DNA from: Phascolarctobacterium sp.
Lineage (GTDB): Bacteria > Bacillota > Negativicutes > Acidaminococcales > Acidaminococcaceae
Direction: 5' to 3'
NCBI RefSeq assembly: GCF_030531065.1
Contig: NZ_JAUNOQ010000007.1
Location: 1-64,000, forward strand
Length of the DNA stretch: 64,000 bases
Positions within the stretch are counted from its first letter, which is position 1. The number at the start of each line of letters is the position of its first letter. This document shows, piece by piece, positions 2,211-28,567 of this stretch. Made by a program: the position numbers and the translations under genes. The notes beneath the pieces are model-generated. The model had not been told where the DNA came from. It saw nothing but the letters and a program-made list of their open reading frames with translations, and ran no database searches.

Positions 2211-2609
2211 CTATCTAAAAGAAAAATTATTAGTCAGGTCGCCGTCCGGCGCAGTACGATAATGCTCCTGCACATATGTACCGTCGCTGCGATAATAACC
2301 GTCCACATGCACTAAAGGCCTGCCGTCGTCTCCAAGCAAAAACGGATGGCAATGATAACAATGAGCATGAGCCAGCGGGTCGTTCTGACATAAGAGGCAG
2401 TTAATATTACAATGATCCGCAAGCCCGCCATCCTGTTCTAACATAGGATGATAGTCTTCATATCCATAGGCATCGTTTCCATAATCCGCGGTCAACAGAT
2501 GGTCGCTATGCCCCGGCGTATCGTCCGCATAATCATATTGTTCCTGATAGTCGTAACTATAAGGGCTGTCCATTATATTATTATCGAATTGAGAAAATAT
2601 GCTCATCAT
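2211..2609 (-). CDS. Small acidic His/Cys-rich protein, unknown function
   Basis: About 132 residues, not recognised. The N-terminal half is very rich in Tyr and Asp (YSYDYQEQYDYADD). The middle carries a His/Cys cluster (HCNINCLLC...HAHCYHCHPF, around 65-90) that could bind a metal. It shares the N-terminal MMSxFxQFD and the DPLAHAxxYHxxPF motif with the gene at 1777-2190. Its start codon overlaps the stop of the upstream dynamin gene (TGATG), so translation is probably coupled. The preserved coupling and duplication argue that it is a real gene. Soluble, no signal peptide. Confidence 0.7.
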   Translation of the reverse strand: MMSIFSQFDNNIMDSPYSYDYQEQYDYADDTPGHSDHLLTADYGNDAYGYEDYHPMLEQDGGLADHCNINCLLCQNDPLAHAHCYHCHPFLLGDDGRPLVHVDGYYRSDGTYVQEHYRTAPDGDLTNNFSFR

Positions 2610-6294: not shown

Positions 6295-6302
6295 AAATCA
6301 AT

Positions 6303-6860
6303 TTAGTTATGTCTTATATTTTTATAAAAGAAGCTGTTATTAATACTCTCTTCATTATTATTTCTTTCTTCTCGACAGTTGTTTCCAATGTTAAATTTTT
6401 CAATTTTCTCTATTTCTTCATTCATACTAATAAATCTACATTCACATAACATTCTCTCAATATGTTCCCTTAGCCTATTATTAGCTCTTACGCATGCATA
6501 TATACAATCATCATCCTTTGTTAACTCTTCCCAATCAGGTACCAATGTTTGGAAATTTCTTAAGCATGTTGTCCCATATCTTGGTGCGCTTTGCGATTCA
6601 TTCGCAAAATTACCACGTTGATACTCATCAAAAATTCCTATTTCTATTTCATGACCATATCCTTTTATATCGTCCTTTATTGATATAAAAAAGAAACCTA
6701 CTTTATTTTCTCCGTCGCAAATATTATATAAATATGAATCATCCGGAACATCAACTCCTACTGTTAAATTTTCGTCTCCATTATACGCATCGGGATGATT
6801 GTGTATAAAATTCACTATAGCTTCTTCAAACCTATCAATTCTTCTTAATTGAATACACAT
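6303..6860 (-). CDS. GNAT-like acetyltransferase domain protein (tentative)
   Basis: 185 residues, clearly more AT-rich than its neighbours. The central part resembles a GNAT fold: a strand with EIEIGIFDEYQRG, then YGTTCLRNF, then a C-terminal CVRANNRLREHIERML..C.F segment, as in the last helix and strand of GNAT enzymes. A canonical RxxGxG/A acetyl-CoA loop is not evident, so activity is doubtful. The last 35 residues are Asn/Glu-rich and look unstructured. It lies between the Sel1-dynamin gene (27 bp) and the tandem dynamins (8 bp) in one operon. It may be an acquired regulator or modifier of the GTPases; that is inference. Confidence 0.5.
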   Translation of the reverse strand: MCIQLRRIDRFEEAIVNFIHNHPDAYNGDENLTVGVDVPDDSYLYNICDGENKVGFFFISIKDDIKGYGHEIEIGIFDEYQRGNFANESQSAPRYGTTCLRNFQTLVPDWEELTKDDDCIYACVRANNRLREHIERMLCECRFISMNEEIEKIEKFNIGNNCREERNNNEESINNSFFYKNIRHN

Positions 6861-6887
6861 TGTTATCTACCTCCGTAAGTTTAAAAA

Positions 6888-10420: not shown

Positions 10421-11635
10421 TTATCTTTGTTCTCCCAAACTAACAATCTCCTGCTCCAGCTTGACGTTATGCTCCAGCATATAATCGACCAGCTCGCGCA
10501 GTTCCGGGTTCCCGCGCAAGGACGCCAGCCGTTCCCGGTCGCGCTGCGTCAAGGGCAGCAGGCAGCTTTGGTGGCGCGCGTCGGCCAGCTCCCGCGCCGA
10601 CATTTTGTACATGGCGAAGGGCGCGCCCGTCGAACGGCGCAGATGCTCGTAAATAAACAGGCCCCCGGCGTCGATATCGCCGAAATGGTAGTAACGCGCG
10701 CGCGGGTTATCGCGGTAAACTTTCTTCAAAAAATCCCGCTGCCCGCGCGACATAAAGCCGCCCAGATAAAAATACGCCGTGTCCGCGGCTTGCAAACGCT
10801 GGTAGGAAGTTTTATTTTCCACCGTCATGAAGGCGCCCGCGCGCACAGAAATTTTTTCGATACGCGCCAGCTCCGCCGCCGCGAACTCTATGCCGCCCTC
10901 AAACAAGCCGACGTCCACTTCGCGCCCCGCAATCGTCAAAACGATTGCTCCCTTCAGGCACAGACGCGGCTGCTCCTTATAAATTGCAAAGCGCTGCAAA
11001 ATTTCGTCGTTTAATTCTTCTTCGGCGCAAGGCGCGGCATAGCTCCGCCGCAAAATCGACGCGACCGCCTCCAGCGTATTTTCTTCAAAATATTTGCTGC
11101 CACCGTAAATCAGCATGGATGCTTCGCGCAAATATAATTGGCGCTCGTTGCGCTCCACAAAAAGCAGCGCCCTGAAAATATCCTCCAGCCTGGACAAATC
11201 CTTGGGAACTGCGCGCCTGGCCAACGCTTCTTTCAGCTTGGCGCATTCGGCGGTAAGCGCCCGCGTTTTGCCGTCGTAAGCGTCTATTAAGCGCCGCAAA
11301 TTTTCCAAAGCTTCATCGCGCGGCTCGTAGCCGTATTTTTCCGCGAGATATTTTTCTATCGCGCCGACGCTGGCGTCGACTAAATAAATTTTGCGAATCT
11401 CGCTGCTGAACGGAATTTTTTCGCACGTCAGCCAGCCTTTTTGCGCCAGCGACTCGACGACTGCGTTCACCGCCGCCACCTTGGCCAAATCGGCGTCGTT
11501 ATCGTTATATTTTTTATACAAACGGTTGGGCGCGAGCTGCGTGCGCCTTTGGATAAGATTGGAGCCGTCGTCCTTTTTGCTCCTGCGGTACTTTTCCACC
11601 AGCGATTTTAGCAGTTGCTCTTCATATTGCGGCAT
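10421..11635 (-). CDS. jetD: Wadjet system nuclease subunit JetD
   Basis: 404 residues. The C-terminal half contains the Toprim-like signature RYYHFGDIDAGGLFIYEHLR (about 315-334), with the DxD expected of topoisomerase VI A / DUF2220-type nucleases. The N-terminal part is the winged-helix/coiled-coil DUF3322-like region. In Wadjet systems JetD cuts closed circular DNA once the JetABC motor has extruded the plasmid, restricting plasmid transformation. It overlaps jetC by 14 bp. Catalytic residues look intact. Confidence 0.88.
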   Translation of the reverse strand: MPQYEEQLLKSLVEKYRRSKKDDGSNLIQRRTQLAPNRLYKKYNDNDADLAKVAAVNAVVESLAQKGWLTCEKIPFSSEIRKIYLVDASVGAIEKYLAEKYGYEPRDEALENLRRLIDAYDGKTRALTAECAKLKEALARRAVPKDLSRLEDIFRALLFVERNERQLYLREASMLIYGGSKYFEENTLEAVASILRRSYAAPCAEEELNDEILQRFAIYKEQPRLCLKGAIVLTIAGREVDVGLFEGGIEFAAAELARIEKISVRAGAFMTVENKTSYQRLQAADTAYFYLGGFMSRGQRDFLKKVYRDNPRARYYHFGDIDAGGLFIYEHLRRSTGAPFAMYKMSARELADARHQSCLLPLTQRDRERLASLRGNPELRELVDYMLEHNVKLEQEIVSLGEQR

Positions 11636-14600
11636 AAGCTTTCTCCTCGTGGAACTGGATGACGCCCAGCTGCATATCGCCCGCGCCGACGCGCAGGGCC
11701 GGCAGGATAACTTCGCATTCGTTGCCTATGGCTTCCGTTTTATCAGGCGAACAGAAAATCATCTGCAATTTCTGCCGCTTCATAAAATCCAGCATAATCT
11801 GCACGTTATGCGGGTCCATTTTCGCAAACGGCTCGTCGATAAACGCCAGGCGCGTGGAATTGGCCTTTTGGTTGTAGTACATCAAAAGCGCGGCGATTAA
11901 AATCAACAGGTACGGTATCTGCACCTCCGCGCCGGAATTGTAGCCCGTTTGCCTGGACAGCTTCGCCTTGCTGAGCACGGCGTTGCTGACGAGAATTTCA
12001 TATTCCATATAATTGCGGTAATCGGCAAAGCGGCTTATCAAATCTTCGCTCTTGCCGGACATGATGCCGTCGATAATCCGGCGCAATTCTTTTGCCAAAG
12101 CCTCGCCGCGTTCGTCGTCCGTTGCGGCGAAGCCTCCCAGCGTAAGTTCGCCTTCGCCCGCGCCCAGCTCCGTCCGCTCTTCTAAATATTTTGCGTACTC
12201 CAAAATTTTAGCGTAATCGCTGCCGTCCGCTTTGCCGCGCACTTCAAACTGGTACTTGGCGGCGAAGTTCAATTTGCTCAACTCCAGATTGATGCGGCGC
12301 AAATCGTCCTTAGCGGCTTCGCACAATTCGTAAACGCGCAGCACGAATTCTTTTTTAAAAACGCTTTCGTACTTAGCCGTCTGCTCCCGCAAGTTTTGCC
12401 GGACTTCCTCAAAATCGTCCATCCTGATATGCTCGAAGCGCGCCGCATAGTCGGCTCTGTCGGCAAAGTCCAAAGCTTGGTTTCTATTATCGTAAGCGCC
12501 CTTCAAGCTGTATAAAATTTCCCGGCTCTGGTTAATGCGCTGCTGCAAACGTTCGCGGCTTTGCGGCTGCAAAATGTTGCCGCGCTTCGCCCCGCCCAGA
12601 TAAGCGTCGTACTCTTCTTTGGCCTGCCGCGTCAAAGCGTAATCTTCAACTTCGCATTGGGCGAACGCTTCGCGCTGTTCCCGCAGCTCGGTCGCGGCTT
12701 TTTTAAGAAACGCTTCGCCCTGCTCCAGCTCGATTTTCAAAGACGTTTTCCGATAATGCAGTCGCTGTTGCTCCTCGTCGCAAACCTTTTTCTGCTCCTC
12801 CAGTTCGCCGAGCAGGATGGTCAGTTCCATAAATTCGCTGTTCTGCTTCTGCGCCTCTGCCAAATCGCGGTACTGTTTTTCGCTTTCACGTATCTGCTCG
12901 CGCAGCGCCTGCAATTTTTGCCGGACGCCGTAATCGTATTCGCCGAAAGCTTCCTGGTACTCCTGCAAGCGCTTGCGCAAATTTTCCGTGTCCTGTACGC
13001 GCGCCAGCAGCGTTTTCTTTTCCTGCTGCAAACGCGCGGCTTCTTTTTCCGCGCGCTTCCTGTTTAATTCAAAGATCCTGTGCCCCAAATAATAATAGCC
13101 GATACGGTCGAAGCGCAAAAAATAACTATCCATCGCTACGGACACGCGCCCTTCGACGGAAATGGCGTTTTCAAAATTACGCGCCTCGTCTAGCTTGACG
13201 CCGTGCATCCTGCCCAACTGGAAATCGAAATAGCGCTGCGCGACCCGGTTTTTAATTTCCAACTGGCGCACCACGGAATCGTTTTCCACTTTGATTTGCT
13301 TGCGCATTAAAAGCTTGGTGTTAAAGATATGCGCGTATTTGAATTTAGAGCCGTTCAAAACCTCGTCCGCGATATCGTAATACTGCGGCTCCACCAAAAT
13401 CGCGTAACGGCGCGCCCCTAAAAAAGCCTCGACGCTGTCGCGCCACGCTTCGTCCTTGAGGGCGACGACGTACTCACAGGCAAATTTAGCCTGCGCCTGT
13501 AAATTGCGTTTCGCTAATTCTCTGTTGATTTCCTCGCGCAGGCCCACGTAATCGGGGATGTTTTGGTAAGCGTTGCGGTGTTTCCTGCAATCCTCGATAA
13601 TTTTATATTGCGCGGCCAGATTTTTTTCTAAGCTCGCCAGGTCGTCGCGCATTTTGCGCAGCTCCCCTACCTGCCCGTCGTAAAATTCAAAAACGAAATT
13701 ACGCAAGGAGGCCGCGGCCTTTTGCTTAACGGCTTCCGCATAATCCGCGCTGAGCAAATTTGCCAAAACGTCCTTTTCTTCGACGTTCGCCCCGTGGCTT
13801 TGCAAAACCTGCAGCAAGCCGTCTACCTGCCGCTGAAAACGCTCCAGCTTCGCCGACTTTTCTTCCAGCTCGCGCTTTTGCTTTTGCAAAATTTGCAGCC
13901 GCTCCCGCGCTTTTTCTAAAAGCTGCGCGCAATCCATGCGGCTCAGACCGGCTTCCGTTTCGCGCAGCTTACCGGCGATAAAATTACTTTTGTCCTCCGC
14001 TTCGCGCAGCGCCTGCCCGACGGTCTCCGCTTCCCGCCGCGTCAGCTCCGCTTCCTGCTCGCGCTGCGCGATAGCGTTTGCTAAATCCTTCAGCCCTTTA
14101 TAAACGATTTTGATATCGTCGCGCTTTAACAGCTTTTCTTCGTTATCCAGCGCGTCGAACGCCTGCAAAATCGCCTGCAAATCGTCCATTTCCCGGCTGA
14201 TAACTTCAAAACCGCTTTGCAATTTTGCGATATTTTCTTTGGCTTCGATAAGCTTGGCAAAATCCACCGCGCGCTCCGCCAAAACGCTATTGCGGATAAA
14301 TTCGTCGATTTTCGCTTCCGGTTTATAAGTCATCAGCCCGCGCAATTTGCGCAAATAAATCTGCAAATTATGCGAATCCAGCTTCAAGCCCGTCATGCGC
14401 AAAAATTTTTGCAAGCCCTGCTCCCTGTTCAGCAGCTCTACTTTATAACGCTGGCGGAACTGCGTCGCGCTGTACGGCAGCAGCAAACCGTCCTGCGTAT
14501 AAGTATGCTCGACCTTATCTAAAGCCGCGTTATCCAGCGCGTACCTGAAAACCTGGCAGTTATTGCTGGGCGGGGTTTCGATAATCGTGCCCAGAATAAA

Positions 14601-14924
14601 ATTTTTCTTCGCCACCTCGTCGTAATATTCCAAAGCGATATGCGTATAAACATTGGGCGCTTTATCCGCCGGGCGCATATAGGTAGTGTTGGTAGCGTCC
14701 AGCAAGCCGCGCGTATAGGAAGAAATCGTGCGGCTACGCTCGCCCTTGATATCGGAAGATTTATTAAAGACCGTGTCGCCGTAAGCGGCGTATTTGATGG
14801 CGTCCAACAGCACGGATTTGCCGTTGCCGTTCTTACCCGCGATGAGCGTAAAAAAGCCTATGGGAGCGGTAATATTCGTAAAGCCGTACCAATTTATTAA
14901 CCGCACTTTCTTGAGCAGTATCAT
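11622..14924 (-). CDS. jetC: Wadjet SMC-like ATPase JetC
   Basis: 1100 residues. Walker A is GKNGNGKS at about 31-38. Long coiled coils surround a central hinge-like segment (about 480-620). A C-terminal ATPase half carries the signature-like SGAEVQIPYLL and Walker B LAFIDEPFAKMD. This is the MukB-like SMC protein of Wadjet, which forms the loop-extruding motor with JetA (kleisin) and JetB. Adjacent genes overlap by 4 and 14 bp, so the subunits are translationally coupled. The length fits the family. Confidence 0.9.
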   Translation of the reverse strand: MILLKKVRLINWYGFTNITAPIGFFTLIAGKNGNGKSVLLDAIKYAAYGDTVFNKSSDIKGERSRTISSYTRGLLDATNTTYMRPADKAPNVYTHIALEYYDEVAKKNFILGTIIETPPSNNCQVFRYALDNAALDKVEHTYTQDGLLLPYSATQFRQRYKVELLNREQGLQKFLRMTGLKLDSHNLQIYLRKLRGLMTYKPEAKIDEFIRNSVLAERAVDFAKLIEAKENIAKLQSGFEVISREMDDLQAILQAFDALDNEEKLLKRDDIKIVYKGLKDLANAIAQREQEAELTRREAETVGQALREAEDKSNFIAGKLRETEAGLSRMDCAQLLEKARERLQILQKQKRELEEKSAKLERFQRQVDGLLQVLQSHGANVEEKDVLANLLSADYAEAVKQKAAASLRNFVFEFYDGQVGELRKMRDDLASLEKNLAAQYKIIEDCRKHRNAYQNIPDYVGLREEINRELAKRNLQAQAKFACEYVVALKDEAWRDSVEAFLGARRYAILVEPQYYDIADEVLNGSKFKYAHIFNTKLLMRKQIKVENDSVVRQLEIKNRVAQRYFDFQLGRMHGVKLDEARNFENAISVEGRVSVAMDSYFLRFDRIGYYYLGHRIFELNRKRAEKEAARLQQEKKTLLARVQDTENLRKRLQEYQEAFGEYDYGVRQKLQALREQIRESEKQYRDLAEAQKQNSEFMELTILLGELEEQKKVCDEEQQRLHYRKTSLKIELEQGEAFLKKAATELREQREAFAQCEVEDYALTRQAKEEYDAYLGGAKRGNILQPQSRERLQQRINQSREILYSLKGAYDNRNQALDFADRADYAARFEHIRMDDFEEVRQNLREQTAKYESVFKKEFVLRVYELCEAAKDDLRRINLELSKLNFAAKYQFEVRGKADGSDYAKILEYAKYLEERTELGAGEGELTLGGFAATDDERGEALAKELRRIIDGIMSGKSEDLISRFADYRNYMEYEILVSNAVLSKAKLSRQTGYNSGAEVQIPYLLILIAALLMYYNQKANSTRLAFIDEPFAKMDPHNVQIMLDFMKRQKLQMIFCSPDKTEAIGNECEVILPALRVGAGDMQLGVIQFHEEKAYAAI

Positions 14925-15541
14925 ACGCGCTCCTCCTCTTCCGCCGTTTCCGCGCCGTCAGCTTCCTTCATATATTCTTGCGCCGTCGTTTTAAACTGCG
15001 CCAGGTCCCAGCTGAATTGCAGGGACGGGTACAAGGTTATTTCCTGTTCTTCGCTGTCGTCGTCCTCGTCGTAATCGATAAGATTATACTTTTTGAATAA
15101 TTTAAAGGCTACGCGCAGTTCCGTGCTAATCACCGGCACGCCGAAGAATTTTATTTTATCGATGATATCGCCCTTGGCGGCCGTGATTCTTTCGCTGTAG
15201 CCCACGTTTTCCAAATAAATTTTCCACAACACCAACAGCAGATGATATTGCAAAGTAGAAAAGCGCACTACGTTGGCCTGCTTGAGCCCGACTTCGTTTT
15301 CGTCCTCTTCATTAGCTATAAGCATGGCCAGACCGATTTTATCGTCGACGTGCAGATCGAAACCCATGGCGCGCAAATAAACCGCCAAATCCTGCCTGTT
15401 GGCTTCCCGCGACGCGAACGCGTATAACTTGGCGTCCTTATCGCGCAGCAAAAAAGTTCCTTCCAATAATTTACGCACGCAGCGTTTAAAAAGCAGCGCG
15501 TATTCTTCTCTAATCGTTAATTGCAAATTTATTTCGTTCAT
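14921..15541 (-). CDS. jetB: Wadjet subunit JetB (DUF4194-like)
   Basis: 206 residues, MukE-like small subunit. It has a tandem winged-helix character, with the segment LQYHLLLVLWKIY in the middle and an acidic tail (DEDDDSEEQE) before the last strand. It lies between jetA and jetC with 4-bp overlaps on both sides. In the known complex JetB bridges the JetA kleisin and helps clamp DNA. The assignment rests mainly on gene order and size, supported by the winged-helix pattern. Confidence 0.8.
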   Translation of the reverse strand: MNEINLQLTIREEYALLFKRCVRKLLEGTFLLRDKDAKLYAFASREANRQDLAVYLRAMGFDLHVDDKIGLAMLIANEEDENEVGLKQANVVRFSTLQYHLLLVLWKIYLENVGYSERITAAKGDIIDKIKFFGVPVISTELRVAFKLFKKYNLIDYDEDDDSEEQEITLYPSLQFSWDLAQFKTTAQEYMKEADGAETAEEEERV

Positions 15542-16950
15542 CTGTCGACCCTTTGAATATCGAATTTATTTATCGCCGCAATTTTCGTCTGCAGCGTCCC
15601 GTCCCGGAATTGCACCCGGAAGGGAAAGGCGCTAGCCCCGGAATAAATTATCGCCGCGGCCAGCATCATTACTTCGCCGCGCGTATCGGCAGGGCAGTCC
15701 TCCACAGGCACTGCGTCTTTGTCGCCCAATAAATTTTCCAAATACGCGGCGGCGTTCCGCATACTATATCTGTCTGGATATTCCTTCAACAATTCGTCCG
15801 TCAGCCGCCGCTTTTCTTCTTCGCTGAGCGTCGCCGCTTCTAAGCCCGCGGTTTTAGCGTTGGGCTTGACGCGCTTGCGCCTGTTGATGGACTTCCTGCC
15901 GACGAAGCCATAGCTCAAGAGGCGGCTGCAGGCGGCCAGCTTTTGCAAAGCTTCTTCGCGCTCTGCCTGCGGCAAGTCTTTCAGCGCCAGCAATAAGCGG
16001 TTGAGTTGCTGCTCCAAATTATTGCTGGCGCCCAAAACCATCATCATGCGCACGGAATAAAGATTGTAGTACGTATTGATTCTTTTGTCGATATAGCTCA
16101 TCTCGTTTTCGTATTCCAGATTCAGGAACACGTCGAGCTGGTCGAACATACCGTTGATATGCTCTCTGGCGGCTCCGGCGTCGGCGTTATACAAACTTCT
16201 GTATTCCGTTTCCATTTTGGCCGCCAGCTCGGAGCGCCGCAATTTGTTGAGCAGCCTGTTGATATTCTGCAAATAAACGGGAATCGACCCGCTGCGCTTG
16301 ATAAAAAAGTAATCGTTAAAAAAGCGTTTTAAAAGTTCGTCCTTCAGCAAAAATTGCCCGAAGCTGTTGGCGTCGCTCAATTTCATCACCAGGCGCATAA
16401 TCGTGCGGATGCTGTCCTTGAGCGCCAGCAATTCGTTTTTCAAATCGGCGGCGTATTCCGAAAGCGGCTCCAAGACGTTGGTATAAGGACGGACGGCGCG
16501 CGCGCTGTCTTTTTCCAGCGCCGAACGCAGCACCTCGTAAATAGAAAAAATGCGGTTCGTAATGGCGCCGTTGGCGTCGCGCTGAAAAATTTTTTCCATC
16601 GCGCCGATGAGCTGGCGGCAGTAAATATTGACGGCGGCTATATTGTCGCCGCTGCGTCCTATTTCTCTTTCGGACAGCCAGCCGCAGCGCCGGAAATAGC
16701 GGATGATAGCGGCGGCGTTATCCTGCGCCGAGTATTGCCCGCTGATTTCGTCGCCGATGTTTTCCGTTTCCAAAACGTACTGGCAATTTTCTAAATACAG
16801 GCAAATCCTGTCCTTAGCGTCCTGCTCGTATAACACGGGTAAGGTTTTCGACGCTTCGACGAACAGCTTAATGCATTCCCAATATATTTCTTTATTTTTA
16901 CAACAAAAGGGGTTGAAGAAATTATCGTTGATATTTTTTAATAACGACAC
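15538..16950 (-). CDS. jetA: Wadjet kleisin subunit JetA (DUF5716-like)
   Basis: 470 residues, almost entirely helical. It begins MSLLKNINDNFFNPF and contains the CGWLSEREIG winged-helix-like motif (about 90-100), features of the JetA family annotated as DUF5716 rather than the DUF3375 type. It is the first gene of the operon. The start is GTG, preceded by GAAGGGGG. I leave the Wadjet subtype open; the JetA type points away from type I. An 85-bp fragment of the aminotransferase gene lies 34 bp upstream. Confidence 0.82.
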   Translation of the reverse strand: MSLLKNINDNFFNPFCCKNKEIYWECIKLFVEASKTLPVLYEQDAKDRICLYLENCQYVLETENIGDEISGQYSAQDNAAAIIRYFRRCGWLSEREIGRSGDNIAAVNIYCRQLIGAMEKIFQRDANGAITNRIFSIYEVLRSALEKDSARAVRPYTNVLEPLSEYAADLKNELLALKDSIRTIMRLVMKLSDANSFGQFLLKDELLKRFFNDYFFIKRSGSIPVYLQNINRLLNKLRRSELAAKMETEYRSLYNADAGAAREHINGMFDQLDVFLNLEYENEMSYIDKRINTYYNLYSVRMMMVLGASNNLEQQLNRLLLALKDLPQAEREEALQKLAACSRLLSYGFVGRKSINRRKRVKPNAKTAGLEAATLSEEEKRRLTDELLKEYPDRYSMRNAAAYLENLLGDKDAVPVEDCPADTRGEVMMLAAAIIYSGASAFPFRVQFRDGTLQTKIAAINKFDIQRVDR

Positions 16951-16983: not shown

Positions 16984-17068
16984 TTTTTACAAATCCTCGA
17001 TAACGTCCGCCGTCTGCCTTACCGCGTCGCGGAACTCTTCCAAAACGTGGTCGATGACTGCCAACGGC
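16984..17068. repeat. 85-bp direct repeat (left copy): displaced 3' end of the aminotransferase gene
   Basis: Identical to 24978-25062, which contains the stop codon and last 27 codons of the aminotransferase gene. Here it is an isolated fragment without the rest of the gene. Both copies have the same orientation and bracket the restriction/SIR2-HerA island, as expected of attachment-site-like boundaries. Confidence 0.95.
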
Positions 17069-17276
17069 CGGCTGTATTTTCATCAACGGCGACCACCAAA
17101 GCTTCGACATTGTAGGAACTTATATCTTAAACAATTTTGTTTCTTCCAATTGGCTTACTTAGCCATATTATCTTAGCTATATGATGGAAGCTTATCAAAA
17201 CTTTATCAATGATGATCAACTTTGAAGATGATTTGATATAAATTGTTACGGGTAATTATACACCGGAACCAACATC

Positions 17277-17304
17277 ATTATAACATATTTATGGTAACAA
17301 TCAA
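17277..17304 (-). promoter_or_regulatory. Candidate jetABCD promoter
   Basis: -35 TTGATT (17304-17299), 16-bp spacer, -10 TATAAT (17282-17277) on the minus strand, about 325 bp upstream of jetA. It lies inside the island's left end (17069-17349, where no gene is seen), so insertion may have replaced the original upstream region of Wadjet. Confidence 0.45.
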
Positions 17305-17349
17305 AATAAGCCTTCGATTTTCTGATGTTATTTATTTAAGGATGGTTTG

Positions 17350-19053
17350 TTATTTTGACTGTTTTCTCAATGCTTCTACGGCACTGTCAATATCTACAGA
17401 AGGAGATTCCTTAGACCATTCATCCCAAAAATCAATAGTTGCACTTCGTGGCTTCATATCAGGTGGCGTAACTCGGATTCTACTTGGCAACAAACTGGCA
17501 TCTCCAACAACAAGTGCCTCTCCTATATCTAATATTGGAAGCATTTCTGCATAATCGCCTAAACTGTCCGGCAATAGCCGTTTTACAACTGCTTGGTCAT
17601 CAACGTTAGTAAGTCGCATTGCAATAAAATTATTACTTTGACTTAGTACAGTGCGATTTACTTCTGAAGGACGCTGAGATATTACAACTAATCCAATCCC
17701 GTATTTTCTACCTTCCTTTGAGATTCGTTCAAATGTTACCAAACTGGCATCGTCAATGCTTTTTTCAGTATTGGCAGGAATATACAAATGTGCTTCATCG
17801 CAAAAAAGCGCAATTGGATGCCGATGAGCAGAGTTTGTCCATTGCTGCACAGAAAAGATAACACGAGCGATAAGAGACACTATTAACGTAAGAATATCAG
17901 ACGGTACTTCCGAAAAATCAATAATCTTTACTCCTTTTTTGCCAGCGATAGATGGTAACATCAATTTACTACACAGTTCACTCATATAATCATAGTTGAG
18001 CAAACGTTTTTCTGATGCAAACATGAAATTCAACCGCTTATCTTTTTGTTTGGTTTCCAGACGTTGAATAAAGCGAGTCAATTTGCCGAAGTAGGGCCCC
18101 TGTTTTTCGCTTCTGGCACCAGAAACCATTTCTGTATCTTTAGACTTTAGGAAAGCAAGCAAATCGTCAAGGCTATATGGAACAGGACTATCCAACGTGA
18201 TGTTTGCTTCCATTTCAGCTTTATTTGCATTCCTCAGAAATTCTTTCTTTCCATCAATAACTGCGCTACTAAACATCATTGCCTGATTTGGAGCGTTATT
18301 GTCACTTCGGTCAAGCATGAGCGAGAGCATTTCTTCATACGTCAGAAGCCAATACGGAAGGAAAAGCATTCCTTCCTCTATAGCATCATTTGGTCCTGCC
18401 ACCTTAAGGTGTGTAAAATTATCACCTTGTAGAGAAGAATACTCCCCGTGAATATCGAACAGTATTGCATCTGCTGATTTGAGAGCTGCAACCTGTTCAA
18501 GAATTTTGGCAACACACCATGATTTTCCGGAACCTGTACTACCGACAATTACAGCATGGCGCTGAAATAATTTATTTCCGTTTAGCCAAGCTGTGGCATC
18601 TTCATCAATTGAATAGTTTCCAATTTGTAAACTAACTGCATCTTCTCCTTCGGGAATAGATGATATTGCTTGCATAAATCGTTTTAACCTATCTCCGTGG
18701 ATAAGGTGGCATTCTGCATTTATCGTTGGTATAGTCGCCAAGGAACGACGAAATACATTTTCTTTTCCAGCCTCTCTATCAAAGTGTGTTCCTATAAGAA
18801 TGACTTTGATAATATTAAACCCAAGCTCTGGGGTTAAATCTGCAGTTGAATCACTATATGCTGACTTGCGAATAATTTTCGACACCAAGCCAATCAAGTG
18901 TTGTCCTATTTTTGAACTTTGGATGGAGATTAAATGATTCACTTGTAGACCTCGTAATTTATCATCATTCTCCACTTTAACAATAACCGTAGATGTGTCT
19001 ACACTTTCAACAGTACCCAGCAGTTCCTCTGGTGTATATTCAAATATGCTCAT
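17350..19053 (-). CDS. herA: HerA-type ATPase (SIR2-HerA defence pair)
   Basis: 567 residues. It has an N-terminal HAS-barrel-like beta domain, Walker A VGSTGSGKSW (about 170-180), Walker B IALFCDEAHLY, and a downstream sensor region, SQRPSEV. HerA hexamers are DNA translocases. When encoded next to a SIR2 NADase they form a large complex that depletes NAD+ or cuts DNA on phage infection. The start at 19053 follows AAGGAGGGG. The SIR2 gene ends 11 bp upstream. Last gene of the four-gene island operon. Confidence 0.88.
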   Translation of the reverse strand: MSIFEYTPEELLGTVESVDTSTVIVKVENDDKLRGLQVNHLISIQSSKIGQHLIGLVSKIIRKSAYSDSTADLTPELGFNIIKVILIGTHFDREAGKENVFRRSLATIPTINAECHLIHGDRLKRFMQAISSIPEGEDAVSLQIGNYSIDEDATAWLNGNKLFQRHAVIVGSTGSGKSWCVAKILEQVAALKSADAILFDIHGEYSSLQGDNFTHLKVAGPNDAIEEGMLFLPYWLLTYEEMLSLMLDRSDNNAPNQAMMFSSAVIDGKKEFLRNANKAEMEANITLDSPVPYSLDDLLAFLKSKDTEMVSGARSEKQGPYFGKLTRFIQRLETKQKDKRLNFMFASEKRLLNYDYMSELCSKLMLPSIAGKKGVKIIDFSEVPSDILTLIVSLIARVIFSVQQWTNSAHRHPIALFCDEAHLYIPANTEKSIDDASLVTFERISKEGRKYGIGLVVISQRPSEVNRTVLSQSNNFIAMRLTNVDDQAVVKRLLPDSLGDYAEMLPILDIGEALVVGDASLLPSRIRVTPPDMKPRSATIDFWDEWSKESPSVDIDSAVEALRKQSK

Positions 19054-19064
19054 TCTACCCCTCC

Positions 19065-20063
19065 TTACCAAATATTTAAGAAGTTATCCAACAGCCAATA
19101 TTGCCCTTCGTAGGTTTCTTCCCATCCGTTTCCATATACCTTGGTATGCAAATCATCCGCATTCTCAAAAACGAGATATTTCTGTATTCCTGCATCAACA
19201 ATATGTTTTCGGCAAGCTGCTGTCATTGTTCTTGCAAGAACAACAATTGGCTTACCTTTAGAAATTTGAGTTAAAAGCTTTGGTTGAATATGTTCGTCAT
19301 TAAACCCATAACCAATACATAAGTATGCACCTGCCTGCACAAATGCGTTGTCTGCTTCCGCAATCATTGTCCTGTATGGCTCATCGTGTATAGTACTATA
19401 CTTTTCCTTCCCGGGAGGAATAATTAGCGGTTGAAAAGTATCTGGAATTTTTCGCGACAGAGGAAAAGCTGCCACAGTTCCATCAGGAGCTATAAACCAA
19501 TCCAATGAGCCATGAACTTTCCAAATATCGACAACCCGCTCCCGAGCACGTGTACGCCGCATTCTTAACTGTGCTACAGGTAGCTCTAATTTCTTTATCA
19601 ACGTTCCTTCAAAACCTGTAACTGTAGTTGCACCAACTCCATCCGCAGAATATTCAGCCAAGCGATCATAATTGGTTGTAACAATTACCGCTTTATTGGG
19701 AGTAGGTGCGAGTACCTTTCGAATTAGATCAGCCAAAGCCTGAGGCGGATTTACGGAATTTCTATCAAAATAAGAAAGATCATTTTCGTTGACCGTTTTC
19801 CAAACAACACATCTTATGGCGTTTAATGTTTGAGGTAACAACGCAACTGAATCTATGGCACTCTCAAGCCCTAAACTATCTATCGCCGTACAGAGTGTAC
19901 CATAATTAGGATCGGAAATAACAATGGCTGATTTCTTTATTTCTTCCGCAAGAATCCCCATAGAAGGAAGCCCGTATGGCATAGATGCACCAGAGCCTAA
20001 AACAATCAATGGCCTATTCTCCAAATATTCCTGTAGCATACTCATACATACGTTCCATTCCAT
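19065..20063 (-). CDS. SIR2-like NADase defence protein
   Basis: 332 residues. The SIR2 Rossmann core shows VLGSGASMPYG (about 21-31), TTNYD (about 130) with the NAD-binding/catalytic Asn, and WKVHGSLDW (about 195) with the catalytic His; a second GYGFND motif lies in the C-terminal half. Bacterial defence SIR2 proteins hydrolyse NAD+ to halt infected cells. Adjacent to HerA, it matches the described SIR2-HerA pair. Key residues look intact. The first ATG is used; ATGs 6 and 8 codons later are possible. Confidence 0.88.
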   Translation of the reverse strand: MEWNVCMSMLQEYLENRPLIVLGSGASMPYGLPSMGILAEEIKKSAIVISDPNYGTLCTAIDSLGLESAIDSVALLPQTLNAIRCVVWKTVNENDLSYFDRNSVNPPQALADLIRKVLAPTPNKAVIVTTNYDRLAEYSADGVGATTVTGFEGTLIKKLELPVAQLRMRRTRARERVVDIWKVHGSLDWFIAPDGTVAAFPLSRKIPDTFQPLIIPPGKEKYSTIHDEPYRTMIAEADNAFVQAGAYLCIGYGFNDEHIQPKLLTQISKGKPIVVLARTMTAACRKHIVDAGIQKYLVFENADDLHTKVYGNGWEETYEGQYWLLDNFLNIW

Positions 20064-20088
20064 TTAGTTCCACTTCCTTCCTTTGCCA

Positions 20089-21735
20089 TTAGCTAAAATG
20101 TTTTTCGTTGTATCCTCGCCCTAATCTTCTTTTCTGCATTTTCTTCCAAATAGCACGACACTTTTGACATATCTTAGAATCAATGCCTAACACATTTACA
20201 AGTAGTTCATTATCAACTGCATCCAGAGCATTTTCAATATCTCCATCGCAACGAACTACAGAATCAATATATGTCAACAACCCATCTCTAAGCGCAGAAT
20301 CAATTTTTTCTACCTTGGGCAGCAAAATATTCCCCATTTCACTAGGAAGAATTTCAAGTACACCACCACCATAGCTTCGTCCACAAATCTCGGTGAACGC
20401 AAAAGAAATGCTATTATAATAAGCAAGAAGAATAGTCTGTGGATCAACACCATCATTGAATTTCATTCTGTGCATCGTGTCCGTCGATACCGCATCGCAT
20501 TTATTCAAGACAAACTTTGGATAAAAGTTGTTTCTTCTCAAGAAAAACGCATCTGGCACCCATACAGAAGGAATAATATACCATCTATCCCTGATGGAGC
20601 ATTTGTAGCCCTCATGCTCTCCACTCTTTTCACCAAGCAAAATATACTCTTTATGTTCAGCAGGGTATTCTTCGTATGGAGTATCCGGGAAGTTAATCAG
20701 TCTTGCACGCTTACCTGTAGTCTTATTTCTTTCCCAATCTTCTGTTGTGAAATATATTCCATGAGTATGAGAACTTCTGCCCACCAGTGGAAGAGTCACA
20801 TCATCCAAATGATAGCGCTTAGAAGTACCTTCTGTAATTGAAAAATAACTATTATTTCCGGTTGTTATTCCAACGTTAATTATGCCATAATCAGAGAATT
20901 TTGCAAATCGCTCATCTGCACGGAGTTTCTGAATAAGAGCCATTTCATCAGCTGATACAAAGTATTTCGTCCATTTCTCCTTGACATGTTGCATTTTCTG
21001 GAAGCCGTTCTGTTCCAGATCTAGCCGCGAAAAACTGTCTAGATCATTCATTTCAATAATACGGATGCCCTTTTCTTCAGCTCCCTTTTCCCCAATAAAA
21101 ACGACTACTTCCTGCTCTATATCAGGAAACACAAGTTGTTCAAAGGTTATCAGCGTAATCTTTGCCAATTGCTCCGAAAGGAATAAGCGCAAGTCTTCGG
21201 CATATGCAACCTGGAGAATCTCTGCCGGTATGATAAAAGCAATTCTTCCATTATTAGAAAGCAACTGCACGCACGCTACCAAGAACGCCACCCAAGCATT
21301 GATAAGCTTGTTTGACTTCATCCCATGTGATGTAAGTATCTTCGATTGTAGTTCTCTCTGAGACTCTGTTAAATACTGATAGCGGATATAGGGAGGGTTT
21401 CCGAGAATCAAATCATAAAGTTTTTGACCAAGTATGCTGGTATAAAATTTGAAGAAATCTTCATTGAAAACCTGAATATGCTTATTGCAGCAATAAGTCT
21501 TTTTGACTTTTTCTACTTCATCAGACTCAATCTCAACAGCATCTATAGAGTCGATGTCATCCATTATACCTAATTGTGCAAGGCTATCGAGGAAGACTCC
21601 ATCACCACAACTTGGCTCAAGAACAGATTTAATATTTTCATGCGCAACAAGCCTAACCATAGCATTTGCAAATTGCAATGGTGTATAGTAAGCTCCTCGT
21701 AACTTCTGCTCTGAACTATCCTTCTTGAGTCTCAT
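20089..21735 (-). CDS. N6-adenine DNA methyltransferase (Eco57I-like)
   Basis: 548 residues. It has N-terminal YYTP, motif I EPSCGDGVFLD (about 41-51) and motif IV LGNPPYIRY (about 113-121), the NPPY of adenine methyltransferases. The C-terminal half looks like a TaqI/Eco57I-type target recognition region. It probably methylates the second strand of an asymmetric site recognised by the enzyme at 21750-24746, as in Eco57I-type systems with a separate modification enzyme. It starts 14 bp after that gene. Confidence 0.85.
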   Translation of the reverse strand: MRLKKDSSEQKLRGAYYTPLQFANAMVRLVAHENIKSVLEPSCGDGVFLDSLAQLGIMDDIDSIDAVEIESDEVEKVKKTYCCNKHIQVFNEDFFKFYTSILGQKLYDLILGNPPYIRYQYLTESQRELQSKILTSHGMKSNKLINAWVAFLVACVQLLSNNGRIAFIIPAEILQVAYAEDLRLFLSEQLAKITLITFEQLVFPDIEQEVVVFIGEKGAEEKGIRIIEMNDLDSFSRLDLEQNGFQKMQHVKEKWTKYFVSADEMALIQKLRADERFAKFSDYGIINVGITTGNNSYFSITEGTSKRYHLDDVTLPLVGRSSHTHGIYFTTEDWERNKTTGKRARLINFPDTPYEEYPAEHKEYILLGEKSGEHEGYKCSIRDRWYIIPSVWVPDAFFLRRNNFYPKFVLNKCDAVSTDTMHRMKFNDGVDPQTILLAYYNSISFAFTEICGRSYGGGVLEILPSEMGNILLPKVEKIDSALRDGLLTYIDSVVRCDGDIENALDAVDNELLVNVLGIDSKICQKCRAIWKKMQKRRLGRGYNEKHFS

Positions 21736-21749
21736 TGTTAATACCTCAC

Positions 21750-24746
21750 TTAATAGTCGAGTCTATATACTCGATCAATCAATCCTTGGATCTCAGAAAC
21801 AAGAGCTTCTTTCTGTCTCTGCAACAGATTTGCAATACGTTTTGCTGGACGTCCAGACAGTACACCATTGATTTCGTATATCTCTCTACTTGCTGCCACC
21901 ACTCTGTCATGGATGGCTTTTTGTTCTTCTATGGCAAAATCCAACTCTACAAAGGGTAGTGTCGAAAGAACAAATGTACCACGAGCTGTAAATCCACCCT
22001 CGAAATCGCTACCTACGATCTCCAAGATTTTCTCTGTAATGGGGTTTGATAACCATGCCTGAATGTATTCGAGCGCATATGGGCTACCATCTTTTTTGCT
22101 AACCGCACAATATCCGGCAGTACCGCCTGACGCAATCAGAATATCATTCGTATCTATCACATACATGGGTTCTTTGCTTAACACACCAACTATCAATTTG
22201 GGCGTGTTAATAAATGCAGTCAAGGCTTGCGTCCTTCCGTACTGATACCATGTTTCTGCGGTGGCATTTGGAACGTCACGAGTTCCATCAGTGGAAACAC
22301 ACTTGGGAACTAAGCGATCATAATAAGCTAAGAGATAAGCATATGTCCCTGGATAACTATTTTGCATTTCATCTATGCGTATAAGATGTCCGTTGCTATC
22401 GTAAGGGAAAATAATCTGCTTATCAGTTGCAAGAATACTATACGAATTCAAGCCCTTTTCTGCTTTTTTGGTTGGTTTGAAATAAGGGCGAAGCAAGGCT
22501 TTCTCAAGGGTGTAATTACTACCATCCCTGTTGATTTCGACAGTATCGGCATATTCAGCCACAATTTCATCTGACGAGAACCAATATATGGGCGTTGGCC
22601 TTTCTGCGCTTGTTTGAATACCATTAAAAATCTCTGCGTGTTTTGTGATTGGGACAGACACTTCATCCAACCTTTGGAGCATTGTCAAAAATTCAAAATC
22701 AGTTGTCAGTCTCCATGGTAGTCTGTTCAACACGGAAGAATTAAGTTCGACGGAATTTACTTTCTCGCCTGCCCACAGTTTATTAGCAGAATCAACGCTA
22801 CTGTAAATAAATGTTGTCTGCTTTTCTTTGGAAAGCAGAATAATCGAACTGTAAATGGTTTTATCCTCGAACAGCTGTGCATCGCCAAAGTCATCCAGGC
22901 TGACGAGCAGCCGTTCTTTAGCAATCAGGCTACGCAATTTCTCGCCAGCGCCAATCTTAAAGAATTTGTTGGGAACAATGTAGCATACCAAACCATGTCG
23001 CTTGATCTTGTTAATTGCCTGCTCTATAAAAATAAAATATTTATCAAACTGCTTGTGCGACGTCATGTATTTCTTTTTGTAGATTTCTACTTCTGCACTC
23101 GGCAGCAGCGTGTGCATTCCCTCGGTATTCACATACGGAGGATTGCCAATAATCACGTCAAAGCCACATCCATTGTTAATTGAGTTCCAATCAAACGGAA
23201 CTATTTCCATCACCTGATGATTTACCCCACTTATACCATTTAGTTCAGCTTGACTGACGAGGGAGTTGCCGAATTGGATATTGCTACTCAGATCAGGAAG
23301 AATCGGAACAACATCTGCTACCGAAAGTACAGTTTCATCTTCAATCAGTTTGATTAACAAAGAAAACTTAGCTACTTCAACTGCATGGATGTCAATATCT
23401 ATGCCATAAATACATGAGCAAAGTATATCTTTCTTCTCTTGAAGGGGCAGTTTATATAAATCAATACCCGTTTCAATCAAGTGATCCCTCTGTCCATTGG
23501 AAATATACCACTGCACGCAATAATTCTGCAAATAGGCAAATGCTTCTTCCAGAAAAATACCAGAACCACAAGCAATATCAGCCACACTGATATCCAAAAT
23601 CTCAGAAGGATCTTTTTCTTCACACACTTTGGAAAGCGTTTTATCTACCATATACTTAACGATTTCTGTTGGTGTAGTAACAACAGATCTATTCTGGCAA
23701 TCTTTTTTCTTGCCAAGAGCAATAGTTTTGTTTTCAAGCAACACTAACTGCTCAGTTAAAAACATCTCGTAAATCTTTCCAAGCAAATTAGGCTCGATAA
23801 TATTAAACAAATAAGGACTCTGAGGGTAATACAAATTCTCAATAATCCTTTTAATAACTTCACAGGAAAGATCGAAAACAATGTCTTCACCGGAAAACAT
23901 TCCAGAATTGTAGCGCCGATCAGCAGAACGGAATAACTCCTCCAACTTGGACTGCAGTTGATCAGCATCAGTAATAGTATCTTTCAACTTGTGATACAAC
24001 GGCAAATTCTTATCTTCGCAAATTCTCAGGAAAACAATTTGGTTAATAAACTCCTGCACAACATCGTTCAGCACTTCCAACGAAGCATATCGACCCCCTT
24101 TAGCATACAGCTCATTACTAAGAGCCACACGCCATTCGTTAATTTGAGAAAGAAACAGTTCATCAACCTGGTGGGTTTGTCCTCCAGTTACAGGAAAGTT
24201 TTCATCTAGATAAGCATCGAAAGCACCAGAATAAACAGTGTCTCTTGCAATCAATCCTACAATTTCTTCAATCTTTTCTACATACTCGGTATAATGGTAC
24301 AATCTGTATCTTGCCACAGCACATCTATCATCTTCGTGGGCAATATGGCAGGTGTCATAGATTGCAAGATATTCAAAATTCGAGAGAACAGCCAAACGAT
24401 GCTTTGCATTCCAACCGTACTTTCTAGTCTGGATTGCCGGAGCCGGATCTCTGGTAATATCTACCGCAGGTTTCTTCGCCTCTACAAAGAATTTAGGTAC
24501 ACCTCTAAGCGTAATGGTATAGTCAGGGCGATCAGTTCGACTAGAATAATTCTCCGCAATAACTTCCCTATATTGAGGAGGCAATCCCTTTTCGTTTGCA
24601 ACATCCCACCCCAAAAGCTTTAACAGAGGATCAATATATTCAATTCTACAAGAATACTCATTATATGGACTTCTTGCGTCCTTATAGAACCCAATATTAG
24701 CATGAAAACGATCTACAAGATTCTGCAATTTGGTCAGGTTAGTCAT
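21750..24746 (-). CDS. Type IIG restriction-modification enzyme (Eco57I-like)
   Basis: 998 residues in a single-chain R-M layout. An N-terminal PD-(D/E)XK nuclease is marked by D75 in RPDYTI and E89-A-K91 in FFVEAKKP. A methyltransferase core follows with motif I DIACGSGIFLEE (about 388-399) and motif IV IGNPPYVNTEG (about 530). The C-terminus is a specificity domain. It is the first gene of the island operon. Motifs are complete, so it should be active. The sequence is more AT-rich than the flanking core genes, consistent with transfer. Confidence 0.9.
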   Translation of the reverse strand: MTNLTKLQNLVDRFHANIGFYKDARSPYNEYSCRIEYIDPLLKLLGWDVANEKGLPPQYREVIAENYSSRTDRPDYTITLRGVPKFFVEAKKPAVDITRDPAPAIQTRKYGWNAKHRLAVLSNFEYLAIYDTCHIAHEDDRCAVARYRLYHYTEYVEKIEEIVGLIARDTVYSGAFDAYLDENFPVTGGQTHQVDELFLSQINEWRVALSNELYAKGGRYASLEVLNDVVQEFINQIVFLRICEDKNLPLYHKLKDTITDADQLQSKLEELFRSADRRYNSGMFSGEDIVFDLSCEVIKRIIENLYYPQSPYLFNIIEPNLLGKIYEMFLTEQLVLLENKTIALGKKKDCQNRSVVTTPTEIVKYMVDKTLSKVCEEKDPSEILDISVADIACGSGIFLEEAFAYLQNYCVQWYISNGQRDHLIETGIDLYKLPLQEKKDILCSCIYGIDIDIHAVEVAKFSLLIKLIEDETVLSVADVVPILPDLSSNIQFGNSLVSQAELNGISGVNHQVMEIVPFDWNSINNGCGFDVIIGNPPYVNTEGMHTLLPSAEVEIYKKKYMTSHKQFDKYFIFIEQAINKIKRHGLVCYIVPNKFFKIGAGEKLRSLIAKERLLVSLDDFGDAQLFEDKTIYSSIILLSKEKQTTFIYSSVDSANKLWAGEKVNSVELNSSVLNRLPWRLTTDFEFLTMLQRLDEVSVPITKHAEIFNGIQTSAERPTPIYWFSSDEIVAEYADTVEINRDGSNYTLEKALLRPYFKPTKKAEKGLNSYSILATDKQIIFPYDSNGHLIRIDEMQNSYPGTYAYLLAYYDRLVPKCVSTDGTRDVPNATAETWYQYGRTQALTAFINTPKLIVGVLSKEPMYVIDTNDILIASGGTAGYCAVSKKDGSPYALEYIQAWLSNPITEKILEIVGSDFEGGFTARGTFVLSTLPFVELDFAIEEQKAIHDRVVAASREIYEINGVLSGRPAKRIANLLQRQKEALVSEIQGLIDRVYRLDY

Positions 24747-24857
24747 TACTGTACGCTACCTTTCTTTTATCGTTTGTCACATTTTCTGCATTTCTGAAAT
24801 GATGCAAATTCGACTCATACAAGTAGTACCGTCAATACGATTTGTCTTACATAGAAT

Positions 24858-24870
24858 TTGACATTGTCAA
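24858..24870. promoter_or_regulatory. Palindromic operator candidate upstream of the R-M operon
   Basis: TTGAC-ATT-GTCAA is a perfect 5-3-5 palindrome 112 bp upstream of the type IIG gene. One arm on the minus strand also reads as a consensus -35 (TTGACA). Restriction operons are often controlled by C-protein-type operators, but no controller gene is present. The region 24747-24977 otherwise holds no gene. Confidence 0.35.
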
Positions 24871-24977
24871 GATGTGATTTTCCATTTAGCAGTAGCTTCT
24901 CGAAACATAATAAAATCATTTATATCAACCACTTTGTAATTTGCAAATACAAAAGTTCACTGTATTATAGTTAGTAC

Positions 24978-25062
24978 TTTTTACAAATCCTCGATAACGT
25001 CCGCCGTCTGCCTTACCGCGTCGCGGAACTCTTCCAAAACGTGGTCGATGACTGCCAACGGC
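24978..25062. repeat. 85-bp direct repeat (right copy), 3' end of aminotransferase gene
   Basis: Second copy of 16984-17068, part of the intact aminotransferase gene and including its stop codon. Together they define an inserted segment of about 7,994 bp. Confidence 0.95.
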
Positions 25063-27572: not shown

Positions 27573-28466
27573 TCAAGCCCGCGGATGAGTTTTATCGTAC
27601 ACCTCGCGCAGCCGCGCTACGTCGAGATGCGTATAAATCTGCGTCGTCGAAATATTCGCGTGACCCAAAAGCTCCTGCACTACGCGCAAATCCGTGCCGT
27701 TGTTCAGCAAATGGGTGGCGAAGGAATGCCGCAGCATATGGGGCGTTATTTTTTTGCCGATGCCCGCGCTGACGCCGTATTCTTCGATAATTTCGTTTAC
27801 CCGCTGACGGGTCATGCCTCCGCCCCAACCGGTAACGAAAAGCTCCGCCGCCGCGTCCGGCTTGCCGTGCAGCAGCTGCGGGCGCACCACGTTCAGGTAA
27901 CGCTCCAGATAACGCAGCGCCGTGCGGCCTAAGGGGAGCATGCGCTCCTTGCTGCCCTTGCCCATGACGATAAGGTATTGCATTTTTAAATCCACGTTTT
28001 GCACCGGCACGCTGATAAGCTCGGACACGCGCATACCCGTGGCGTACAGCAGCTCCAGCATGGTTTTGTCGCGGTAGCCGTCCAGCGTCCCTAAATTGGG
28101 CTGGTCCAGCAGCCTGTCCACCTCGTCCACGCTCAGCACCTTGGGCAGCTGCAAGCCCTTGTTCGCGGCCTCCAGCACTGCCGCCGGGTCGCGGCGGATA
28201 TAGCGCTCCGCCGTTAAAAAGCGGTAAAAGGCTTTAATCGACGCCAGCTTGCGGGCGATGGTGGAAGCGCTGCGCCCCGCCTGCTTGAGCTGCACCAGAT
28301 AGGCCAAAAGCTGGCGACGACCGACCTCTAGCAACTCCTCCGCTTCCCGCAGTCCCAAAGCTTTTTGCAGCAAGCGCAAATCGCGCAGGTAAGCGGCGCG
28401 GGTATTTGGCGCAAGGCCCAGCTCCACTAGTAAATATTCTTCAAAGAGAGCCAAATAATCAAACAT
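27573..28466 (-). CDS. xerD: Tyrosine recombinase XerD
   Basis: 297 residues from the preferred ATG at 28466, which follows GGAGCGGGG. An upstream start would add 9 residues. It has the N-terminal SAM-like core-binding domain, then the catalytic R in ATGMRVSEL, K in GKGSKERMLP, HxLRH in HMLRHSFATHLL, and LLGHANISTTQIYTH with the final Tyr nucleophile. Size and motifs fit the chromosome dimer resolvase rather than a phage or island integrase. Located next to hfq and miaA. Confidence 0.88.
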   Translation of the reverse strand: MFDYLALFEEYLLVELGLAPNTRAAYLRDLRLLQKALGLREAEELLEVGRRQLLAYLVQLKQAGRSASTIARKLASIKAFYRFLTAERYIRRDPAAVLEAANKGLQLPKVLSVDEVDRLLDQPNLGTLDGYRDKTMLELLYATGMRVSELISVPVQNVDLKMQYLIVMGKGSKERMLPLGRTALRYLERYLNVVRPQLLHGKPDAAAELFVTGWGGGMTRQRVNEIIEEYGVSAGIGKKITPHMLRHSFATHLLNNGTDLRVVQELLGHANISTTQIYTHLDVARLREVYDKTHPRA

Positions 28467-28567
28467 TTTACCCCGCTCCAAAAAGAAAAACAACGCCGCA
28501 GCGCCGTTTTTATATTGTACTAATGAGAAAGCGCCAGATATGCGAATGCAGCTGGCGCCTTATGGTT

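Follow-up and report, generated by a model that had tools for sequence, protein, structure and literature searches.

Nobusato et al. (2000) and Furuta et al. (2010) are reportedly the sources for the insertion of restriction-modification (R-M) systems with long target duplication. In the relevant sections of PMC3874152, R-M systems are described as inserting with long and variable target duplications, on the order of 100 bp, and without linkage to mobile elements, and parts of PMC3031569, PMC1643837, and PMC3154945 also describe R-M insertion with target duplication. Here we analyze a stretch of 64,000 nucleotides from Phascolarctobacterium sp. (the window, positions 1 to 64,000 of contig NZ_JAUNOQ010000007.1), in which an R-M unit lies between two copies of the 3′ end of an aminotransferase gene (Table 1). 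The locus best fits the published type of R-M insertion with long target duplication and no integrase, a reading towards which we lean with limited confidence. To this known process the present analysis adds the occurrence of different defense modules directly 3′ of the methylase.

Table 1. Features of the aminotransferase-linked insert and its surroundings, in window coordinates.
Feature	Position	Strand	Remarks
Wadjet operon, jetA-jetB-jetC and following gene in jetD position	10421-16950	-	Neighboring layer outside repeats
Direct repeat copy B, 85 bp	16984-17068		Identical to copy A; 33 nt before jetA start codon
Tail between HerA and copy B, 281 bp	17069-17349		31.7% GC; origin unexplained
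HerA ATPase of SIR2-HerA pair, 573 aa	17350-19071	-	PF01935; PADLOC PDLC04105, E 2e-235
SIR2-like protein of SIR2-HerA pair, 332 aa	19065-20063	-	PF13289; PADLOC PDLC04087, E 1.3e-105
M, M.Eco57I-type methylase, 548 aa	20089-21735	-	PF22837; in related loci the swap occurs at its 3′ end
R, Eco57I-type IIG restriction-methylase, 998 aa	21750-24746	-	PF07669, PF04313; PADLOC PDLC03604, E 3.9e-260
Leader upstream of R	24747-24977	-	L062 cassette homology reaches 24969, 8 bp short of copy A
Direct repeat copy A, 85 bp	24978-25062		Final 82 bp of aminotransferase gene including stop codon, plus 3 bp
Class-III aminotransferase, intact target gene, 413 aa	24981-26222	-	PF00202; context conserved in relatives
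XerD, housekeeping, nearest recombinase gene to insert	27573-28493		

The 7.9 kb between the repeats contain four co-directional genes, an Eco57I-type R-M pair followed by a SIR2-HerA pair, the latter presumably the anti-phage system called Nezha in some papers. This DNA is foreign, with 39% GC (0.391) compared to 52–60% around it (0.518 on the Wadjet side and 0.601 in the aminotransferase gene); the repeat itself has a GC content of 0.541. The motifs PD-x-EAK and NPPY in R, and TTNYD, HGS, and GSGKS in the SIR2-HerA pair, were picked out by eye, and the SIR2 and HerA proteins also match solved SIR2 and HerA chains. Because their scores fall under the NCBIfam equivalog cut-offs, the SIR2 and HerA proteins of the window represent a distant subfamily. 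Judging from the protein families alone, the R-M pair would cut unmodified incoming DNA and the SIR2-HerA pair could provide a second, NAD-depleting layer of defense. An earlier note on this DNA had seen no recombinase inside the repeats, and indeed none of the four genes filling the insert encodes an integrase, transposase, or resolvase. Terminal inverted repeats of the insert do not exceed chance (78 of 500 shuffles were as good). On the HerA side, homology to related cassettes stops at the HerA stop codon (17350), beyond which lies the 281-bp tail. The tail is matched in 14 of 200 genomes of the class, namely the window's own genome and 13 others with stretches of at most 46 bases, and in none of the phages or plasmids searched. 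A faint aminotransferase-like reading in the tail was dropped; against the aminotransferase gene, only the 85 bp align well.

The two copies of the repeat are 100% identical over 85 nt at a spacing of 7994 bp, as the earlier note had claimed, and exactly two copies, with no third, are present in the 2.37-Mb genome. The runner-up direct repeat in the 11.5-kb region measures just 22 nt at 82%, so the perfect 85-mer is not a product of chance, and the identity of all 85 positions indicates that the insertion is apparently recent. The accompanying claim, that the repeat includes the stop codon and the target gene stays whole, is likewise borne out. The stop codon (24981-24983) lies within copy A, which supplies the end of the gene and leaves it whole, and the alignment of the 413-residue product with its relatives spans residues 1–413. 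Among the 61 genomes searched, 4 match the 85 bp, and only the window's genome does so twice; the comparison with island-less relatives proposed in the earlier note thus returned one match at most per genome. Of the two outcomes that the note had named as refuting it, neither was encountered.

To assess the origin of the repeat, nucleotide identity over the last 27 codons of the aminotransferase gene was compared with that over the whole gene. The values are 74.1 versus 77.6% for G001 and 77.8 versus 77.3% for G003, the two closest relatives, and the GC3 of the gene end is 0.78. Since the divergence from these two relatives is about that of the whole gene and the GC3 is 0.78, the 85-bp repeat looks like native gene sequence. 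An att fragment imported from a foreign species should show silent-site differences. In seven other relatives compared, however, identity at the gene end falls short of the whole-gene value by 2 to 8 points, which counts against insertion with target duplication.

The earlier note also treated the 85-bp repeats as the bounds of a defense island. This part needs revision, as a Wadjet operon begins 33 nt beyond copy B, and the repeats enclose a single layer of a larger insert rather than the entire defense island. The genes jetA, jetB, and jetC were named by PADLOC (jetA also by PF18982), while the 404-aa jetD was named from its position and has no NCBIfam match. Between the Wadjet operon and the contig end are three dynamin-like GTPase genes (2609-9374), one with Sel1 repeats, which are possible further defense genes. 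At 1-1623, two copies of a 306–308-bp sequence, 94% alike, surround a PD-(D/E)XK-family gene; this repeat type probably broke the assembly between two contigs. The window also contains a very large open reading frame (2450 aa, 51191-58543) and no tRNA.

In related genomes, the aminotransferase gene is normally followed by a gene encoding a 144-aa protein. The family survey covered 59 genomes, 36 of which have both genes, and the two are adjacent on one contig in 34 of these 36. One of the two exceptions is G006, whose interval lacks a repeat of the aminotransferase end and holds genes named by eye as transposase-like. The other is the window's genome, in which a different contig begins with the 144-aa gene; the initial 82 bp of that contig match window positions 516-435 in reverse at 96%. 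With the junction over the contig break inferred, the aminotransferase gene and the 144-aa gene would be separated by about 25 kb at the least, made up of two or more layers. The relatives have a single aminotransferase end, no cassette, and no Wadjet match, the JetA search of 13 relatives having been run without a positive control. The Wadjet operon would be the older layer, present before the cassette. The housekeeping XerD gene is found beside the aminotransferase gene in 18 of 20 relative loci, the contigs of the other two starting too late to show it. XerD was set aside as the agent of insertion, as it adjoins the aminotransferase gene in relatives without the island too.

The interpretation in the earlier note is partly supported. 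Its comparison with site-specific integration finds little backing apart from the geometry, which is accompanied by no dyad above chance, no recurrent use of the site in the family, and no 12-bp match near the other tyrosine recombinases of the genome. The locus could be the remnant of an integrative element in the aminotransferase 3′ end, with the 85 bp as the sequence shared by attL and attR and with an integrase that was later lost or acts in trans. A repeat that spans the gene end with its stop codon preserved speaks for such an element, and its ending 3 bp past the stop codon is more natural under an integrase model than under R-M insertion. Related cassettes occur near tyrosine or serine recombinases, and a family search found five tyrosine recombinases in the genome besides XerD, one of which is taken for a second housekeeping Xer, judged by score and size only. 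However, the best imperfect dyad in the 85 bp is no better than chance (336 of 500 shuffles were as good), and the site is uninterrupted in 34 of the 36 family genomes that have both genes. The earlier note had also proposed a search for the same 85 bp next to integrases elsewhere; within this genome, the 10–18 kb around each of the five other tyrosine recombinases contain no match of at least 12 bp to the repeat. Neither the aminotransferase gene nor an exact 30-base stretch of the repeat occurs in the viral contigs searched, and no plasmid matches the insert at megablast level. Moreover, identity at 85 of 85 positions, silent sites included, demands an element adapted to this very species, and related cassettes elsewhere adjoin several unrelated recombinases, or none. 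Across the dyad, the site occupancy, the surroundings of the tyrosine recombinases, and the viral, plasmid, and phage collections, only the geometry speaks for site-specific integration at the aminotransferase end. Such an event is a weakly supported possibility, and we regard an integrative remnant as rather unlikely.

The earlier note allowed for mobilization in trans or a fixed island, a choice that omits a third, published option, R-M insertion with long target duplication. This option accommodates the presence of R-M genes, the perfectly duplicated target, the lack of a recombinase, and an insert nearly coextensive with the cassette, one edge of which lies 8 bp from the repeat. Against it stand the unexplained 281-bp tail and the finding that a long repeat abuts the cassette in 0 of the 48 related loci examined (of 55). 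A native-looking repeat could also arise by homologous or unequal recombination, if the cassette had earlier been located downstream of the aminotransferase gene in another copy or strain. The cassette would have arrived on a circle that carried the gene end and integrated through one crossover; alternatively, sister copies would have undergone an illegitimate crossover that fused the cassette tail to the gene 82 bp ahead of its stop codon. Identity at all 85 positions would then follow without any att site; the stop codon fixes one end of the repeat, while its other end looks arbitrary. But two steps and a prior copy beside the aminotransferase gene are needed, and no prior copy is found in the family, where the cassette HerA occurs in no other genome searched, making this origin improbable. 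Very improbable, in our view, is an assembly effect in which an excised circle or a second allele was placed into the chromosome at the 85-bp overlap. The assembly is a draft of 27 contigs and the contig start itself breaks at a repeat; yet reads normally exceed 85 bp in length, and if an excised circle did exist, the 85 bp would still represent a genuine junction of recombination.

Under R-M insertion with long target duplication, the cassette would have entered at the aminotransferase 3′ end beside the pre-existing Wadjet operon, and both 85-bp copies would derive from the target during insertion. Repair synthesis could produce the duplication, although the joining and copying steps proposed here are not established for such insertions. 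The empty site with one copy is a reconstruction. Homologous recombination between the two resident copies would then permit deletion or tandem amplification. The SIR2-HerA pair is best read as a passenger, a second defense system on a moving R-M unit.

A scan of species genomes yielded 55 loci with a relative of R, and M is found behind R in 50 of them. The methylase gene is followed by a gene on the same strand within 400 bp in 40 of these 50 loci and by none in 8, while the contig ends too soon in 2. These 40 genes fall into 23 BLAST groups, 16 of them with a single member. PADLOC analysis of ten proteins encoded behind M (first or second genes, from six loci) identified Shedu SduA, DUF4297, Gabija GajA and GajB, NsnA/PD-T4-2, PDC-M37A, PDC-S06, and a weak DrmC, with two proteins unmatched; a HerA gene was found behind DUF4297 by tblastn. 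Near-identical R proteins can have different partners, as in L065/L066 (99.0%) and L071/L074 (98.0%). The partner differs in 103 of 118 pairs of labeled loci with R at least 75% identical, a count made over non-independent pairs and with the L068 label assigned to the window by hand. Nine locus pairs, six of them with different partners, were compared by blastn. In each of the six, the R-M homology breaks off at the methylase end or no more than a few bases from it, and further on there is no long homology, with weaker local matches of 65–81% in three. The gene directly 3′ of the Eco57I-type methylase thus appears to be exchanged between loci while the R-M genes stay near-identical, resembling an exchangeable slot. 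No description of such a slot was met in a literature search, though we do not claim that it is unpublished.

The R protein of the window is closest to those of L062-L064 (92% protein identity), which are without SIR2-HerA, while its SIR2-HerA pair is closest to those of L068 and L110 (80–90%). By sequence similarity, the window cassette is therefore a mosaic in which R and SIR2-HerA have different closest loci. The C-terminal part of R (21747-22646), which is probably responsible for target recognition, is 87–90% identical to L062-L064 and L072 and 62–68% (DNA) to L068 and L110. A swap of the recognition domain of R is suggested. SIR2-HerA is also found in two viral contigs without R-M matches, L120 (8992-11716) and L121 (9015-11734).

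Recombinase or mobilization genes of several unrelated types are found near 23 of the 55 cassette loci, a count made on cassette loci only, from chosen seeds and with genes named by eye. Repeats were sought at 48 of the 55 loci, in stretches reaching at most 6 kb upstream of R and 9 kb downstream of M. Those of at least 20 bp occur only in L077, L080, L086, and L105, where all start more than 1.4 kb from R, and no tRNA was detected at them by ARAGORN. A repeat in L107 was discarded as an overlap of the two searched stretches. Long direct repeats with recombinase genes flank the cassettes of L077 (6253-6469 and 21088-21265) and L105 (4451-4640 and 18129-18319). Since no long repeat abuts the cassette at the 48 loci and 23 of 55 lie near recombinase or mobilization genes, the cassette seems usually to travel as cargo, a point against R-M insertion with long target duplication. 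In the sampled loci, cassettes appear to be situated mostly near ordinary mobile elements or without a visible vehicle, and the repeat-flanked form is found only in the window.

A more far-reaching and tentative proposal, which we consider unlikely, is that the Eco57I-type R-M pair could be a self-inserting carrier. It would move without a recombinase, leave target duplications, and bear at the methylase stop codon a docking slot in which whole defense modules are exchanged (SIR2-HerA, DUF4297-HerA, Shedu, Gabija, and others). If this were true, one selfish R-M unit would spread many unrelated immune systems. The growth of defense islands without integrases is poorly explained, and the locus offers a clean and apparently recent case beside another defense operon.

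Among described systems, the locus resembles tyrosine-integrase islands in gene 3′ ends in its direct repeat of the gene end and its intact target gene, but differs in having no integrase, no detectable core dyad, and a site that is not reused. Adjacent SIR2 and HerA genes matching the PADLOC models are shared with the SIR2-HerA anti-phage pair; in the window, however, the pair forms the 3′ part of an R-M cassette. The large restriction-methylase fusion and the separate methylase with an M_Eco57I_C domain are consistent with an Eco57I-type R-M system, one in which, unlike the known type, M in related loci is trailed by exchangeable defense genes. The locus shares with R-M insertions with long target duplication the absence of a recombinase and a direct repeat of target sequence measuring on the order of 100 bp, and is distinguished from them by a unit that also carries SIR2-HerA and adjoins a Wadjet operon.
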